A stretch of DNA of 33,372 nucleotides from NCBI GenBank assembly GCA_033720895.1, contig JAWWBS010000015.1, positions 1 through 33,372 of the forward strand, given 5' to 3'. The stretch comes from Gammaproteobacteria bacterium. GTDB taxonomy: Bacteria; Pseudomonadota; Gammaproteobacteria; Natronospirales; JAJUFS01. The position numbers were made by a program, and so were the translations under genes. The first letter of the stretch is position 1. Each line of letters starts with the position of its first letter. Below are positions 12,603 to 33,372 of the stretch, in pieces. The notes beneath the pieces were generated by a model, which was given only the letters and a program-made list of their open reading frames with translations, was not told the DNA's origin and searched no databases.

Positions 12603-12947
12603 CTATTGCCGTGCCTCGGCGCAGCCGATGCAGAACAGGGCGCAGGGATCGACCTTCAAGCGGGCCAGCGCGATTTCCTCGCCACATTCCCGGCACTCGC
12701 CATAATCACCACGCTCGATTCGTTCCAGTGCGCGCTGTATTGCCTGCAGGCGCTGCGTGGCACGGGCACTGGAAGCGCGCGCCATGGCCTGTCCCTGCAA
12801 GGCATCCATGCGAGTCAACCGACCGGTCCGCGTCTGGTCGAGTTCCACGGTGTCGGCGCTGGTCCGACGCGCTTCCGCGCTGGCGTCGAGGGCATTGCGC
12901 TCCTCGTGGAGTTGCCGGCGCAGGCTGTCCAGATCGTGATCTTCCAT
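12603..12947 (-). CDS. TraR/DksA-type C4 zinc-finger protein
   Basis: 114 residues, in the class of small DksA relatives that may bind RNA polymerase through its secondary channel. A long helix (about 5-80) contains VELDQTRTGRLTRMDALQGQAMA, typical of this subgroup, then the zinc finger with C85, C88, C106 and C109 spaced C-x2-C-x17-C-x2-C, as in DksA; C102 is extra. It is shorter than DksA (about 150). The ATG at 12947 is chosen because residues before it in the open frame do not fit the family. There is no clear ribosome binding site, and a -10-like TACACT ends only six bases upstream, so the mRNA may be leaderless. Confidence 0.92.
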   Translation of the reverse strand: MEDHDLDSLRRQLHEERNALDASAEARRTSADTVELDQTRTGRLTRMDALQGQAMARASSARATQRLQAIQRALERIERGDYGECRECGEEIALARLKVDPCALFCIGCAEARQ

Positions 12948-13337
12948 GTCGCCAGTGTAGAGAAAAAAGGCCCGCGAGCGCCAAGTTCCACGCGGATCCG
13001 ACAAGGCCCGGAGAGAGTTGATCCTTTGTCGGCCGGCATGAACCGGCGAGCGGCGATCACGTTCCTGTGATCAGTTGCCCGTATGTCCTGCTGGCAGCGC
13101 TCGACCGGGGCGAACCTCCTCTGGTCCCGGGAGCGCCGGGCGGGCGCAGGGAGTCATGCTGCCCGCCAGTTTGCCAGCAGCCCGGGCAACCGGGCCGTCC
13201 CTGTCAATACAGACCGCACCGGTGAGATCTTCATTGCACGCCCGGTCACGCTCTGCTGTTGCCGTGCAGCAGATCACGGTGCTGGCAGCTATGCTTGGCG
13301 ATACTGATGACTTCTGTTCCCACGCGAGGTGAGTGCC
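12948..13337. other. 390-bp intergenic stretch without a supported gene
   Basis: No open frame here has a family match, a ribosome binding site or convincing composition. It holds two small hairpins, GCCGG-6-CCGGC (about 13032-13047) and GATCAC-GTTCCT-GTGATC (13055-13072), and divergent control regions for the TraR/DksA-type gene and the secreted protein at 13338. An unannotated small RNA cannot be excluded, but nothing specific supports one. Confidence 0.5.
12954..12984 (-). promoter_or_regulatory. possible promoter giving a leaderless mRNA
   Basis: On the minus strand TACACT (12954-12959) lies six bases before the ATG of the TraR/DksA-type gene. TTGGCG (12979-12984) could be the -35, but its spacing of 19 bp is long. 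Transcription would begin at or next to the start codon. Confidence 0.3.
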
Positions 13338-13964
13338 ATGAAATTGATCCAGAAGCTGTTGTTGCTGGTATTGCTGTTGCCGCTGGCTGTCCAGGCCCAG
13401 GAAGAAGAGGCTGACGAGCCGCGCAGTTGCAGTGACAAACGCGCCGAATGCGTGTCGTCCTGTGATTCGGAGCGCACCTTCTTCGTGTTCAAGGGCGAGC
13501 GCTATGACAGCTGTGTCGATCAGTGCGAAGCCAAGTTCCCGGATGACTGCGATCAGCGTGCCCGTGGCGGGCGTGATGGCGAGCGTGAGCGTGATGGCGA
13601 GCGCGGGCACGAGGGCGAGCGCGGCAAGGGCAACATGGAACACCCCCAGGACAAGGAATACGGTTACGACAAGAATGCCGACAAGAAGTCGGACAAGAAG
13701 CGTGGCGAGCGTGGTCGTGGTGGCGATGCCGACGACATGGACCGTGATGATGACGCTCGCGACCGTGCCGAGGATGCGGCCGAGGATGCCCGTGAGCGTG
13801 CAGAAGAGGACCGCGAACGTGCCGAGGAAGCGGCCGAGGATGCCCGTGAGCGTGCAGAAGAAGACCGCGAACGTGCCGAGGAAGCTGTCGAGGAGGCCCG
13901 GGGTCGTGGCGGCGAAGAGCGGGGCCGTGGCAAGAACAGGGACGGCGACAAAGACGAGGATTGA
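13338..13964 (+). CDS. secreted twin-CX3C protein with long charged repeat tail, function unknown
   Basis: 208 residues, no recognised family. A signal peptide (MKLIQKLLLLVLLLPLAVQA) is followed by an acidic spacer and a short cysteine domain: C31, C38-x3-C42, C59-x3-C63 and C71. The two CX3C motifs lie 16 residues apart, compatible with a disulfide-linked helical hairpin in the periplasm. From about residue 74 the chain is almost only Arg, Glu, Asp, Gly and Lys: first Gly-rich (GGRDGERERDGERG), then helix-forming 18-residue repeats (DARERAEEDRERAEEAAE) at 150-185, then Gly/Arg again to the end, DKDED. The ATG at 13338 has GAGGTGA at good spacing. The long frame opposite it is an antisense artefact of the repeats. 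Confidence 0.85.
   Translation: MKLIQKLLLLVLLLPLAVQAQEEEADEPRSCSDKRAECVSSCDSERTFFVFKGERYDSCVDQCEAKFPDDCDQRARGGRDGERERDGERGHEGERGKGNMEHPQDKEYGYDKNADKKSDKKRGERGRGGDADDMDRDDDARDRAEDAAEDARERAEEDRERAEEAAEDARERAEEDRERAEEAVEEARGRGGEERGRGKNRDGDKDED
13785..13892 (+). repeat. 54-bp tandem repeat, two copies, in frame
   Basis: Two near-identical 54-bp units (13785-13838 and 13839-13892), each coding 18 residues of alternating Glu/Asp and Arg with Ala. A degenerate partial unit precedes and another follows. Eighteen residues equal five alpha-helical turns, so copy number can change without altering helix phase. Confidence 0.85.
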
Positions 13965-13970
13965 ACCGGG

Positions 13971-14001
13971 CTGCCGGCCCGGCAAGCTGCCGGGCCGGCA
14001 G
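13971..14001. terminator. perfect 14-bp inverted repeat after the charged-repeat gene
   Basis: CTGCCGGCCCGGCA (13971-13984), loop AGC, then its exact complement (13988-14001), seven bases after the stop. The stem is very GC-rich. There is no T-run directly after it (a short TTTT comes 15 bases later), so it may be a terminator or an mRNA 3'-end stabiliser. Confidence 0.55.
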
Positions 14002-14113
14002 GTTCGCCTGTAAGAATTTTCGGAAAACCCGTGCCTGTGAATGGCTTCACAGTGCTGGCCTCACGGCATGCCGATAGTGGTGGGTACGCTCGCAGCTTTT
14101 CAAGGAGTGACCC

Positions 14114-14608
14114 ATGTACAAGGATCGCATCAAGCCGGGCCCGGGCCAGGAGTCCGTCTGGGACTATCCCCGTCCACCGCGGCTCGAAGCCAGCCTCCGC
14201 CGCGTTCGGATCGAGTTCGCCGGCCGCCTGATTGCCGATACCCGCGAGGCTTTCCGGGTCCTGGAAACCTCCCATCCACCGACCTATTACATTCCGCCCG
14301 GCGACATCGACGAGTCGGTCCTTGAGGTCAGCGACTTGCACAGTTATTGCGAATGGAAAGGCCAGGCCGATTACCGCCATCTCAGGCTGGGTGAGCGGCA
14401 GTCTCGAAATGCCGCCTGGTTGTACCCCGACCCGGTCCCGGCGTTCGCGCCGCTGGCGGGTTACCTGTCCTTCTATCCCTCGCGGGTCGATGCCTGCTGG
14501 CTGGACGAAGAACGCATCGAAGCGCCGGAGGGCGATTTTTACGGCGGCTGGATCAGCAGCGACATCGTCGGCCCTTTCAAGGGGCCACCGGGATCACAGG
14601 GTTGGTAG
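14114..14608 (+). CDS. DUF427 domain-containing protein
   Basis: 164 residues, cytoplasmic, function unknown. The DUF427 core is clear: VRIEFAGRLIADTREAFRVLETSHPPTYYIPPGDI, then CEWKGQADY and NAAWLYPDP, with GYLSFYPSRVDACWLDEERI. The family is a small beta-rich fold often annotated as nucleotidyltransferase-like without direct evidence. The tail after about residue 140 (GDFYGGWISSDIVGPFKGPPGS) is common in the longer members. The ATG at 14114 has AAGGAG at ideal spacing. The next gene is 121 bp away on the same strand. Confidence 0.92.
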   Translation: MYKDRIKPGPGQESVWDYPRPPRLEASLRRVRIEFAGRLIADTREAFRVLETSHPPTYYIPPGDIDESVLEVSDLHSYCEWKGQADYRHLRLGERQSRNAAWLYPDPVPAFAPLAGYLSFYPSRVDACWLDEERIEAPEGDFYGGWISSDIVGPFKGPPGSQGW

Positions 14609-14729: not shown

Positions 14730-15620
14730 ATGATGATCGAACACTGGCAACTGCTGGTGGCGGCCTTGCTGACGGGCATGCTCGCCGGTATCGCTGCCTA
14801 TGCACTGGCCTTCCTCGGGGTCTGGCTGGGCGATGCCATCACCCGCAAGATGAAAATCATGCCGGTTCCGGCGGCTCCCGGCGACAAGGCCAGGCGCCAT
14901 TACCGGGTGCTGGGCAAGCGGGCCGGCATGTGGTGGGCCGCGATGCTGGTCGTGCTCGGTGTTACCGGGGTTACCTGGGTGCTGCTGCCCGGCAAGTGGT
15001 CCATCGAGCTCGAGCAATGGGGTTGGTACGTGGCAGCTGCCGTGCTGGTATTGCTGGTCCTGATGGCCTTCTGGAACCTGGTGAGCCTGTTCCTGCAGCG
15101 GCGCGATGCGCGTCATGACTGGCTCTCACATCGTGCCGTGGCGGCAGTACTTGATCGCCTCGGTGCCAACGGCTTCCGCATCTTCCACGAGGTGGTCATT
15201 GGCGAGGTGCTGATCGATCACGTGGTACTGGGCGAAAAAGGGATCTTTGCCATCAACACGGTAGCGCGGCGGGCTCACAAGAAGGACACAGAGCGGGCAG
15301 CGAAGTTGGAAAATGGCAAGCTGGCATTCAGCGACGGCGAGGTACTGGTCGAACCGATTGCCGAATCGGCCGCAAACCTGCGCATGCTCACCGCCGCCTG
15401 CACCAAGCTGCTCGGACACAAGGCCATCGTCCGGTCCGTGATCGCCTTGCCAGGCTGGAACTGCCAGCCGGATGCCAGCGAGAACCACATGCTGCTGAAC
15501 GAAACCAACCTGGCGACCCTGCCAAGCTGGAACCCGCCCGAGCATCACCTGATGCAGGAAGACGTGCCCAACCTGGAAAAATGGTTGCAGGAGCAGTCCA
15601 CTATCAAGACGCTGGACTGA
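14730..15620 (+). CDS. membrane protein with degenerate NERD (nuclease-related) domain
   Basis: 296 residues. Three hydrophobic segments (about 7-33, 66-86 and 96-117) precede a cytoplasmic domain that resembles NERD: RAVAAVLDRLGANGFRIFHEVVIGEVLIDHVVLGEKGIFAIN. NERD domains are PD-(D/E)xK-like and normally read '..iDhvvvgp.GvfviEtK'. D163 is present, but the expected E and K are N176 and V178 here (AINTVARR), so nuclease activity is doubtful. The later part (about 200-270) keeps a Rossmann-like pattern (VRSVIALPGWNC). The first ATG of a pair (14730, 14733) has GGGGA upstream. It is convergent with mscS, with the stop codons 10 bp apart. Confidence 0.8.
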   Translation: MMIEHWQLLVAALLTGMLAGIAAYALAFLGVWLGDAITRKMKIMPVPAAPGDKARRHYRVLGKRAGMWWAAMLVVLGVTGVTWVLLPGKWSIELEQWGWYVAAAVLVLLVLMAFWNLVSLFLQRRDARHDWLSHRAVAAVLDRLGANGFRIFHEVVIGEVLIDHVVLGEKGIFAINTVARRAHKKDTERAAKLENGKLAFSDGEVLVEPIAESAANLRMLTAACTKLLGHKAIVRSVIALPGWNCQPDASENHMLLNETNLATLPSWNPPEHHLMQEDVPNLEKWLQEQSTIKTLD

Positions 15621-30782: not shown

Positions 30783-31029
30783 GCCGTGCCTGATCTGACA
30801 TAAGTCCCTTCACCTGTCTAAAAAAACACCAATCGAAAGCTGAATCCGGGTTTGGGTTCGAATTTTTAGGCCTGCTTCATTGATTTTTGCACTGCACTAA
30901 ACTAAACCCGATGTTCATGTCTGCGAATACAAAACCAAAAATGCAGGCTGACGAGCATTACCCAAGGGGGGTGATGACACGATCCAGGGAGGGTTCGTGC
31001 AATTGAGGTGATTGATTGGGGGGATATTT
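30783..31029. other. AT-richer intergenic leader before the S8 protease
   Basis: About 250 bp, clearly lower in GC than the flanks, with no supported gene. It carries A- and T-runs and two G6 runs (30966-30971 and 31018-31023), the second acting as ribosome binding site for the ATG at 31030. CGGGTTT (30847-30853) and AAACCCG (30904-30910) could pair in a leader RNA. A weak -10 (TAAACT, 30898-30903) is present without a good -35. No known riboswitch class is recognised. Confidence 0.45.
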
Positions 31030-33372
31030 ATGTCCTTTTTTACTACCGGACGGAGATCCGGTCTTTTGTGGCGCGTCCTTTTGGCTGCCACGGCGTTACT
31101 CTTCACGACCGCGACAACCGTCGCCCATGCCGGCCAGCGCAGCGCGCCTGAGCAAGCCGGTCCACCGCAACAGGTCATCGTGCAGTTTGCCAAGCCCGGC
31201 CAGGGTGAAGCGAACCGTTCCGAGCGTGCCCGCGAAGTACTGGCTGCAGTCAGCCAGCGCCTGAGCGTCAAGCTCGAGCGGGTTCGTACGCTGGGTACCG
31301 GCGCCGACCTGGTGCGCGTCCACGGCCGCAAGGGAGATCATGCCCGCGTTGCCCAGATGCTGTCGCGCAACCCGCATGTCGTTTATGCCGAGGTCGACCA
31401 GATGCTGAAGCCACTGGCGACGCCCAATGACTCGCGTTACAACGAGCAGTGGCATTACTTCGAGGCGACGGGCGGCTTGAACGTCGATTCGGCCTGGGAT
31501 GTGACCACGGGTGCTGGCGTGCTGGTGGCGGTGCTCGACACCGGCTACCGTCCGCACGTCGATCTCGACGGCAACATCGTGGGTGGCTATGACTTCATTT
31601 CCGACAGCTTTGTCGGCAATGACGGCGACGGCCGCGATTCGGATGCGCGCGACCCGGGTGACTGGGCCGAAGCAGGCGAGTGTGGCAACGGCCAGCCGAC
31701 CCAGTTCCAGGGTTCCAGCTGGCACGGCACGCACGTCGCCGGCACCGTGGCTGCCGAAACCAACAACTCCAGCGGTGTGGCTGGCGTTGCCTATGGCGCC
31801 AAGGTCGTGCCGTTGCGCGTGCTGGGCAAGTGCGGTGGCCTGACCTCGGACATTGCCGATGCCATCATCTGGGCATCCGGCGGTACCGTTTCTGGCGTGC
31901 CGACCAATGCCAACCCGGCTGACGTGATCAACATGTCGCTCGGTGGCGGCGGTTCCTGCTCGTCCACCACCCAGTCGGCGATCAACACCGCCCGTTCCAA
32001 TGGTGCGGTCGTGATCGTCGCTGCCGGCAACTCCAACACCAATGCGTCGAACGCCAACCCGGCGAACTGCGCAGGCGTGGTGACGGTGGCTGCCACCAAC
32101 CGTGACGGTGGTCGTTCCTACTACTCGAACTACGGTTCGGTGGTCGATGTCGGCGCGCCGGGTGGCGAGCTGACGCAGTCCACGTCGATCAACGGCGTGT
32201 TGTCGACGTTCAACAGCGGCAGCCGTGGTCCGGGCAGCGACAACTACACCTTCTACCAGGGCACTTCGATGGCGGCACCGCATGTCGCTGGCGTTGCTGC
32301 GCTGATGATGGCGGTAGACAACACGCTGAGCCCGGATGACGTCGAGTCCATCCTGAAGTCGACGACCCGCGCCTTCCCGTCCACCTGCTCGCAGTGCGGC
32401 ACCGGCATCGTTGATGCCACGGCAGCCGTGAACGCGGCCAATGGTGGCGGCGGTGGCGGTGGCGGTGACACCGTGCTCGAAAACGGCGTCGCCGAGACCG
32501 GCCTGTCCGGTGCCCAGGGTGCCGAGCTCCGCTTCACGCTGGAGGTACCAGCCGGTGCGACCGACCTGTCGTTCAACATGAGCGGTGGTTCGGGTGATGC
32601 CGACCTGTACGTCAAATTCGGTTCGGCACCGACCACCTCGAGCTACGACTGCCGTCCGTACGTCGGTGGCAACAGCGAGAGCTGCGATATCAGCAACGTC
32701 CAGGCAGGCACTTACCACGTCATGATTCGTGGCTACTCGGCCTTCTCGAACGTGTCGCTGGTCGGCAGCTTCACCGAGGACACCGGTGGCGGTGGCGGCG
32801 GTGACACCGTGCTCGACAACGGCGTGGCCAAGACCGACCTGTCCGGCGCCCAGGGCGAAGAGCTGCTCTTCACCATGGACGTTCCGGCCGGTGCTTCCGA
32901 CCTGAGTTTCGTCATGAGCGGTGGTTCGGGCGACGCGGATCTCTATGTCCGCTTCGGCCAGGCGCCGACCACGTCGAGCTATGACTGTCGTCCGTACCGT
33001 TCGGGCAACAACGAGACCTGCAACATCTCCAATGTGCAGGCCGGTACCTACTACGTGATGCTGCGCGGCTACTCGGCCTTCTCGGGCGTGTCGCTGACGG
33101 GCAGCTACACGGATGGCGGTTCCGGTGGTGGCGGTTCGAACTTCTTCGAATCGACGACCAACGTCTCGATCCCGGACAATGGTGGCTACGTCGAAAGCCC
33201 GATCAGCGTCTCCCGCACGGGTGACTCCGGCTCCATCACGGTGCACGTGGAAATCGTCCACACGTATCGCGGTGACCTGGAAGTCATCCTGGTGACGCCG
33301 AGCGGTCAGACGACCACGCTGGAATCACCGAGCAACGACTCGGCGGACAACATCAGCAAGGACTACACCATC
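31030..33372 (+). CDS. secreted subtilisin-like (S8) serine protease with two PPC domains and a P-domain, 3' end outside window
   Basis: 781 residues are present. A signal peptide (to about VAHAG, residue 35) and an inhibitor-type propeptide (about 45-130, [10 protein letters not shown] ... VVYAEVD) precede the S8 domain, whose triad is D170 (VAVLDTG), H232 (HGTHVAGT) and S413 ([11 protein letters not shown]), with the oxyanion Asn in AAGNSN. A Gly-rich linker joins two tandem PPC (pre-peptidase C-terminal) domains, starting at about residues 480 and 592, then a P-domain-like segment ([16 protein letters not shown] ... [18 protein letters not shown]) cut by the window edge. PPC domains are often removed after secretion. 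Export is probably Sec-dependent followed by type II secretion (inference). The ATG at 31030 follows a GGGGGG tract seven bases away. Confidence 0.96.
32467..33138 (+). repeat. 336-bp in-frame duplication (two PPC domains)
   Basis: Unit 1 is 32467-32802, unit 2 is 32803 to about 33138. Both begin GACACCGTGCTCGA and share long blocks such as [30 protein letters not shown] and RGYSAFS. The period of 112 residues equals one PPC domain with its Gly linker. Likely an intragenic duplication that has begun to diverge. Confidence 0.88.

Follow-up and report, generated by a model that had tools for sequence, protein, structure and literature searches.

A candidate exported protein with a six-cysteine, predicted helical head and a repeat-built acidic tail, encoded by an orphan gene of a Natronospirales bacterium

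Which protein, if any, is encoded by a gene that resembles nothing else in its lineage? The question is raised by an open reading frame on the plus strand (positions 13338 to 13964) of a 33,372-nucleotide window, i.e., the whole stretch of contig JAWWBS010000015.1 of a gammaproteobacterium of the order Natronospirales that was analyzed here; its GC content is 62%. A first-pass annotation, made from the sequence alone, had described a small exported protein with six cysteines, in which two CX3C motifs lie 16 residues apart and are flanked by C31 and C71, and the sequence confirms the frame, which encodes 208 residues, and this cysteine arrangement. The frame opens with an ATG at 13338, 5' of which stands GAGGTG, and its stop codon ends at 13964. 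The parts of the gene and the signal that follows it are collected in Table 1.

Table 1. Features of the orphan gene and its 3' flank
Feature	Position	Strand	Basis
Signal peptide, residues 1-20, probable cleavage after VQA	13338..13397	+	K2/K6, L/V-rich core, V-Q-A
Six-cysteine head, residues 21-76, C-X6-C-X3-C-X16-C-X3-C-X7-C	13398..13565	+	Sequence; predicted helical hairpin
Linker, residues 77-134, R/D/G/E/K-rich, low-confidence model	13566..13739	+	Sequence, AlphaFold
18-bp tandem repeat within the linker	13567-13624	+	Repeat finding
Predicted helix, residues 135-190, alanine stripe, net charge about -14	13740..13907	+	AlphaFold, sequence
54-bp tandem repeat (18 aa per unit), 2.6 copies, 93% matches	13758..13900	+	Repeat finding
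C-terminal charged end, residues 191-208, and stop codon	13908..13964	+	Sequence
GC-rich stem-loop (possible terminator or 3' stem)	13970..13998	+	Directly 3' of the stop codon

We scored the frame with a codon model trained on nine neighboring genes, whose own scores span 0.331 to 0.530 per codon; at 0.367 per codon, the frame falls inside this range. The opposite strand is open as well: an antisense frame of 304 aa (13071 to 13985, minus strand) encodes a hydrophobic repeat that mirrors the charged repeat of the plus frame. It is conceivable that the locus makes no functional orphan protein, the plus frame being a chance opening or the minus frame being the gene. The open antisense frame itself, its higher score for synonymous codon choice along the tail (0.252, versus 0.160 for the plus frame), and the lack of any homologue (see below) argue for this alternative, which we nevertheless regard as improbable: the minus frame scores lower overall (0.174 versus 0.367 per codon) and over the tail (0.346 versus 0.417), its TTG start sits inside the first arm of the 3' stem-loop, and it is the plus frame that carries the signal peptide and the ordered cysteines. 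Given its codon bias, signal peptide, ordered cysteines, and the stem-loop after its stop codon, the plus frame is very probably the gene. The stem-loop region folds at -44 kcal/mol over 13955 to 14025 (z = -5.26; 0 of 200 shuffles were equally good). A terminator consensus scan did not call the hairpin, since no T run follows it directly, and a promoter scan found no promoter-like site for the gene.

Searches for relatives were carried out in overlapping sets of genomes. Apart from the gene itself, a whole-protein query of the own genome hit only the antisense repeat frame of the same gene (E = 1.6e-4). Fifty-six genomes of relatives contained no homologue, and 19 genomes of the order contained no convincing one at E <= 10; the single other match there (in G010; E = 0.338) lies opposite what appears by eye to be a type II secretion/pilus-like gene. 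At the level of the class (369 genomes, E <= 0.1), eight other genomes gave weak matches only, which we judged to be noise; none had both a signal peptide and a pair of CX3C motifs, a reading that covered these matches apart from L041 (minus strand, two stops inside). Nothing convincing beyond the gene itself came from 398 genomes of the phylum at E <= 0.01, and collections of plasmids and phages held no homologue. A search of genome contigs with residues 1 to 76 returned 215 pattern matches and viral contigs returned 46, none of which was confirmed. No family of Pfam or NCBIfam passes its cut-off on the protein, the names that surfaced (Rubicon homology domain, 0.022; Ag473 lipoprotein, 0.0099, on the tail) being far below theirs; PHROGs gave one row only, on the tail (E = 0.77), and PADLOC none. 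The first-pass annotation had named, as an outcome speaking against itself, that the cysteine domain might belong to an established family of different function; no such match was seen in the profile libraries.

Related neighborhoods were equally silent. Through alignments of the NERD-domain protein encoded nearby, we fetched 80 loci (80 of 104 confirmed were kept), in which a scan for exported twin-CX3C frames matched the motif 99 times; a crude signal filter left five of these, and we judged none to be real. No signal-bearing frame in 1,331,042 bases reached 60% R/E/D/K over 50 residues (153 of 159 loci, the six from the window itself being excluded). When 163 of 171 loci were scanned for the strict motif (the eight from the window itself being excluded), 12 frames of at least 70 aa were found, none of them from L162 on, and two further motif scans of the collected loci returned only matches that we took for chance frames. 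Isolated genes without any match occur often in MAGs of this kind, and orphan status alone is therefore unremarkable.

The gene lies downstream of a gene for a spermidine-synthase-like methyltransferase and is preceded by a gene for a DksA/TraR-type zinc-finger protein (minus strand) and followed by genes for a DUF427 protein and the NERD-domain protein. The latter (14730 to 15617, plus strand) has hydrophobic N-terminal stretches, and MAGs of Woeseiaceae and of other gammaproteobacteria contain many relatives of it. In the only genome of the same family that was compared (G001, 82% complete), a spermidine-synthase-like frame and a NERD protein flank another methyltransferase, as judged by eye, and the orphan gene is absent between them; DUF427 has no match in that genome, and the sole DksA-like match is weak (E = 1.5e-5). 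The three genes that G001 lacks between these similar flanks (DksA-like, orphan, and DUF427; 12603 to 14608) therefore look like a lineage-specific block, and the difference between the two genomes looks like an insertion or a loss. At the far end of the window, a frame assigned by eye to a subtilisin-type secreted protease (31012 to 33372, plus strand) runs past the window end; its C-terminal part includes a 336-bp tandem duplication (32461 to 33110, 1.9 copies, 79%).

The predicted protein begins with a stretch that, by eye, resembles a Sec signal peptide with a V-Q-A site, in keeping with the export proposed earlier. Its head contains C31, C38, C42, C59, C63, and C71, and the gaps of 6, 3, 16, 3, and 7 residues are near-symmetric, almost a palindrome. 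We asked how readily such spacing arises by chance, using tests that were devised after the pattern had been seen: 1,323 of 200,000 shuffles of the 55-residue cysteine region, with six cysteines kept, contained CX3C-X14-18-CX3C; six cysteines placed at random in 55 residues formed the inner pattern with X4-20 and one flanking cysteine per side in 0.38% of cases and had flank gaps equal within one in 0.045%. On a helical wheel, C31, C38, and C42 fall within 40 degrees, i.e., on one helix face, and C71 lies about 120 degrees away from the face of C59. AlphaFold models of the full-length protein and of the head only, both built from the single sequence without an alignment, contain the same three head helices (residues 30 to 44, 46 to 52, and 56 to 66), and an extra one (69 to 75) is predicted in the full-length model only. 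Block pLDDT over the helices of the head-only model is 74 to 88 (mean pLDDT 74; pTM 0.49). The helical hairpin suggested in the first-pass annotation is accordingly borne out at the level of prediction.

The tail had been described as made almost only of Arg, Glu, Asp, Gly, and Lys. It is indeed highly charged, with a net charge of about -18 over 132 residues, but its five-letter composition was overstated: these residues account for 78% of positions 76 to 208, and 90% is reached only when Ala is added. The 18-residue repeats are encoded by the 54-bp tandem repeat, and lag-18 identity within residues 135 to 190 is 0.74. In the full-length model (pTM 0.31), this segment is a single helix, with block pLDDT of 89 to 96 over residues 141 to 180. 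The earlier expectation of one stable alpha helix or coiled coil is supported to this extent; the charge pattern does not follow, since opposite charges at i+3 and i+4 occur at shuffle level (z = 0.78 and 0.81; 5,000 shuffles). There is an excess of like charges at i+7 (z = 3.78), as would arise from the 18-residue repeat itself, and the alanines line one face (moment 0.82 at 100 degrees per residue, or 3.6 residues per turn). With single-alpha-helix domains (PMC5347031), the tail shares a long, R/E-rich charged helix, here a predicted one. Unlike those domains, it is Ala-striped and acidic, and it lacks the excess of opposite charges at i+3 and i+4 over shuffled sequences that defines the ER/K type. 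Such a helix, acidic and smooth on one side, could equally well stand alone, serve as a rod, or pair weakly with copies of itself.

These observations can be assembled into a tentative model. The Sec pathway would export the protein and residues 1 to 20 would be removed, after which the DsbA/DsbB system could oxidize the six cysteines; a DsbB gene is present in the own genome (G000:C28; E = 1.8e-47). We infer nested rungs C42-C59, C38-C63, and C31-C71, which would staple the two head helices into a hairpin and make it the folded unit. The third rung is the weakest of these, given the position of C71 off the face of C59. Residues 135 to 190 would form a straight, acidic, alanine-striped helix that acts either as a soluble rod holding the head off a partner or as a self-association surface that pairs copies through its alanine face, and the 54-bp repeat would let the rod change length by duplication. 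In favor of the model we count the codon score of the plus frame, its signal peptide and GAGGTG, the 3' stem-loop, the near-symmetric gaps, the shared face of C31, C38, and C42, the head helices common to both AlphaFold models, the predicted tail helix with its alanine stripe, the 54-bp repeat, and the DsbB gene. Against the model as a whole we count the missing homologues, the alignment-free structure models, the synonymous score of the tail relative to the opposite strand, and the missing promoter-like site. The anatomy, a stapled head plus a rod, is in our estimate slightly better than an even bet; the complete explanation, that this is a real gene for an exported protein with a stapled periplasmic head on an acidic rod, we hold with a probability of about 0.4.

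The tail could instead be the working part, an acidic polyampholyte that protects against stress or desiccation or binds ions, with the head as only a cap. Its net charge, repeat-built sequence, and alanine stripe fit such a role; Pfam offered no LEA or similar family at E <= 1, and the six-cysteine head seems to have more order than a mere cap would call for, and we consider this alternative rather improbable. The low-complexity tail could also be functionless.

The cysteines might bind metal rather than form disulfides, the second half of the head being a knuckle like those of the YHS (PF04945) and TRASH metal-binding domains. The similarity is local: GERYDSCVDQCEAKF resembles the YHS half G-x-x-Y-x-x-C-x3-C-x2-K-F, and a YHS frame of a P-type ATPase (L043) was a weak match (E = 0.025). 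A local YHS profile aligned half of the domain, and 61 of 2,000 shuffles with fixed cysteines scored as well; this profile is rough, having started from 23 stretches, of which three with stops were dropped and at least two that were translated on the wrong strand (L134 and L138) were kept. We found the half motif unconvincing: the own genome has no PF04945 match at E <= 0.001, though 19 of 56 genomes do, Pfam scans of the protein gave none, the orphan head is predicted to be helical and fails the profile, and its first cysteine pair is CX3C, not CX2C. A metal knuckle is therefore, in our view, very improbable.

The first-pass annotation had likened the cysteine layout to that of mitochondrial small Tims, claiming no kinship. 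Small Tims are small twin-CX3C chaperones, as the cited part of PMC3759932 has it, and the orphan head shares with this family (PF02953) the twin CX3C and, by prediction, the helical hairpin. By analogy, the protein could be a periplasmic holdase like small Tims or Skp, with heads arranged in a ring and helices gripping unfolded clients. Small Tims are recognized by a hexameric ring, client binding, and Zn binding when reduced. The orphan protein differs from them in its extra cysteines, its tail, which is charged throughout, and its want of long hydrophobic arms, for which the mature part before C31, just ten acidic residues, leaves no room. A tie to the family thus lacks support: PF02953 had no match in the own genome at E <= 10 and none in the Pfam scans; a control with this profile gave matches in 7 of 14, although none of these exceeded the cut-off. 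Of the roles weighed here, a holdase strikes us as the most doubtful.

Structure searches did not point to a relative. Foldseek found nothing in the PDB at E <= 0.001, either for the full model (30 rows, best E = 1.9) or for the head (10 rows, best E = 4.7), and a PDB sequence search returned 3 rows with E of 0.84 to 3.4. VIA-align re-compared Foldseek's 18 best chains, and the 13 rows it listed all have Z <= 4.3, which the tool itself describes as a common arrangement, i.e., noise level. Small Tim chains are absent from this list, an absence that does not exclude them. Among the rows are two plant hairpinins, VBP-8 (Z = 4.2, rmsd 3.5, 47 aligned) and BWI-2c (Z = 3.3, rmsd 3.7, 41 aligned), at noise level like the unrelated Rop (Z = 4.3) and SF3b chains (up to 3.3).

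These two rows bear on the possibility that the head is a bioactive hairpin like the plant alpha-hairpinins, a protease inhibitor or antimicrobial peptide, and the tail its carrier or pro-region. Antimicrobial peptides are usually cationic, and the orphan head carries a net charge of about -7. It obeys the same spacing rule as alpha-hairpinins; its loop between C42 and C59 contains R46, K52, and R55, and plant hairpinin inhibitors are described in the relevant part of PMC7191063 as using an Arg in the loop between the CX3C motifs; we also count in its favor that a subtilisin-type protease frame lies near the window end. The loop of 16 residues exceeds the 11 to 13 of the proven active members covered by the cited portion of PMC11591084, no sequence match was found, and Rop and SF3b chains score alike, so that we regard a bioactive hairpin as improbable, too.

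If the preferred reading, a stapled head on an acidic rod, is correct, this would be a small, self-contained bacterial module that couples a stapled hairpin to a rod of adjustable length. It would also exemplify a lineage-specific gene with a tail extended by in-frame 54-bp repeats, and it would have converged with the defense peptides of plant seeds. Its weight is limited at present to that of a single orphan with a proposed function. The proposed layout, two helices stapled by cysteines as a head on a long acidic helix, is best known from plant seed proteins, and the host is a poorly known environmental bacterium. The literature searched yielded no bacterial hairpinin and no exported bacterial twin-CX3C protein, which is no proof of their absence.

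The earlier statement that no described family has this architecture was too strong. Plant alpha-hairpinins are defined, in the part of PMC11591084 used here, by C-X3-C-Xn-C-X3-C, searched with n of 4 to 20, and the orphan head fits this motif with n = 16. It departs from the 6C form C-X3-C-X3-C-X4-20-C-X3-C-X3-C, in which the outer gaps are 3, by its own outer gaps of 6 and 7; alpha-hairpinins are further characterized by disulfides C1-C4 and C2-C3. The Vicilin_N profile (PF04702) had no match in the own genome at E <= 10, its controls being equally without a match, and none in Pfam scans of the protein. Since no sequence kinship was found, we read the likeness as convergence. A rather unlikely extension of this reading is that bacteria arrived on their own at a protein of the alpha-hairpinin type: exported, with a hairpin stapled by three rungs on an acidic rod lengthened by repeats, and matching the front half of PV100-type plant precursors. 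It would then perhaps be the first known member of a bacterial family not yet described, in an order that is poorly sampled. The closest layout among known systems is that of plant alpha-hairpinins and vicilin-type precursors (PMC7191063, PMC11591084, as far as the cited parts go), such as the pumpkin PV100 precursor with its signal peptide, CX3C hairpins, and repeat-built Arg/Glu-rich domain (PMC7191063). Unlike PV100-type precursors, the orphan protein is bacterial and has one hairpin, with n = 16, and no vicilin domain; what the two have in common is a signal peptide, a C-X3-C-Xn-C-X3-C helix-loop-helix, predicted in the bacterial case, and a charged repeat domain that follows it.
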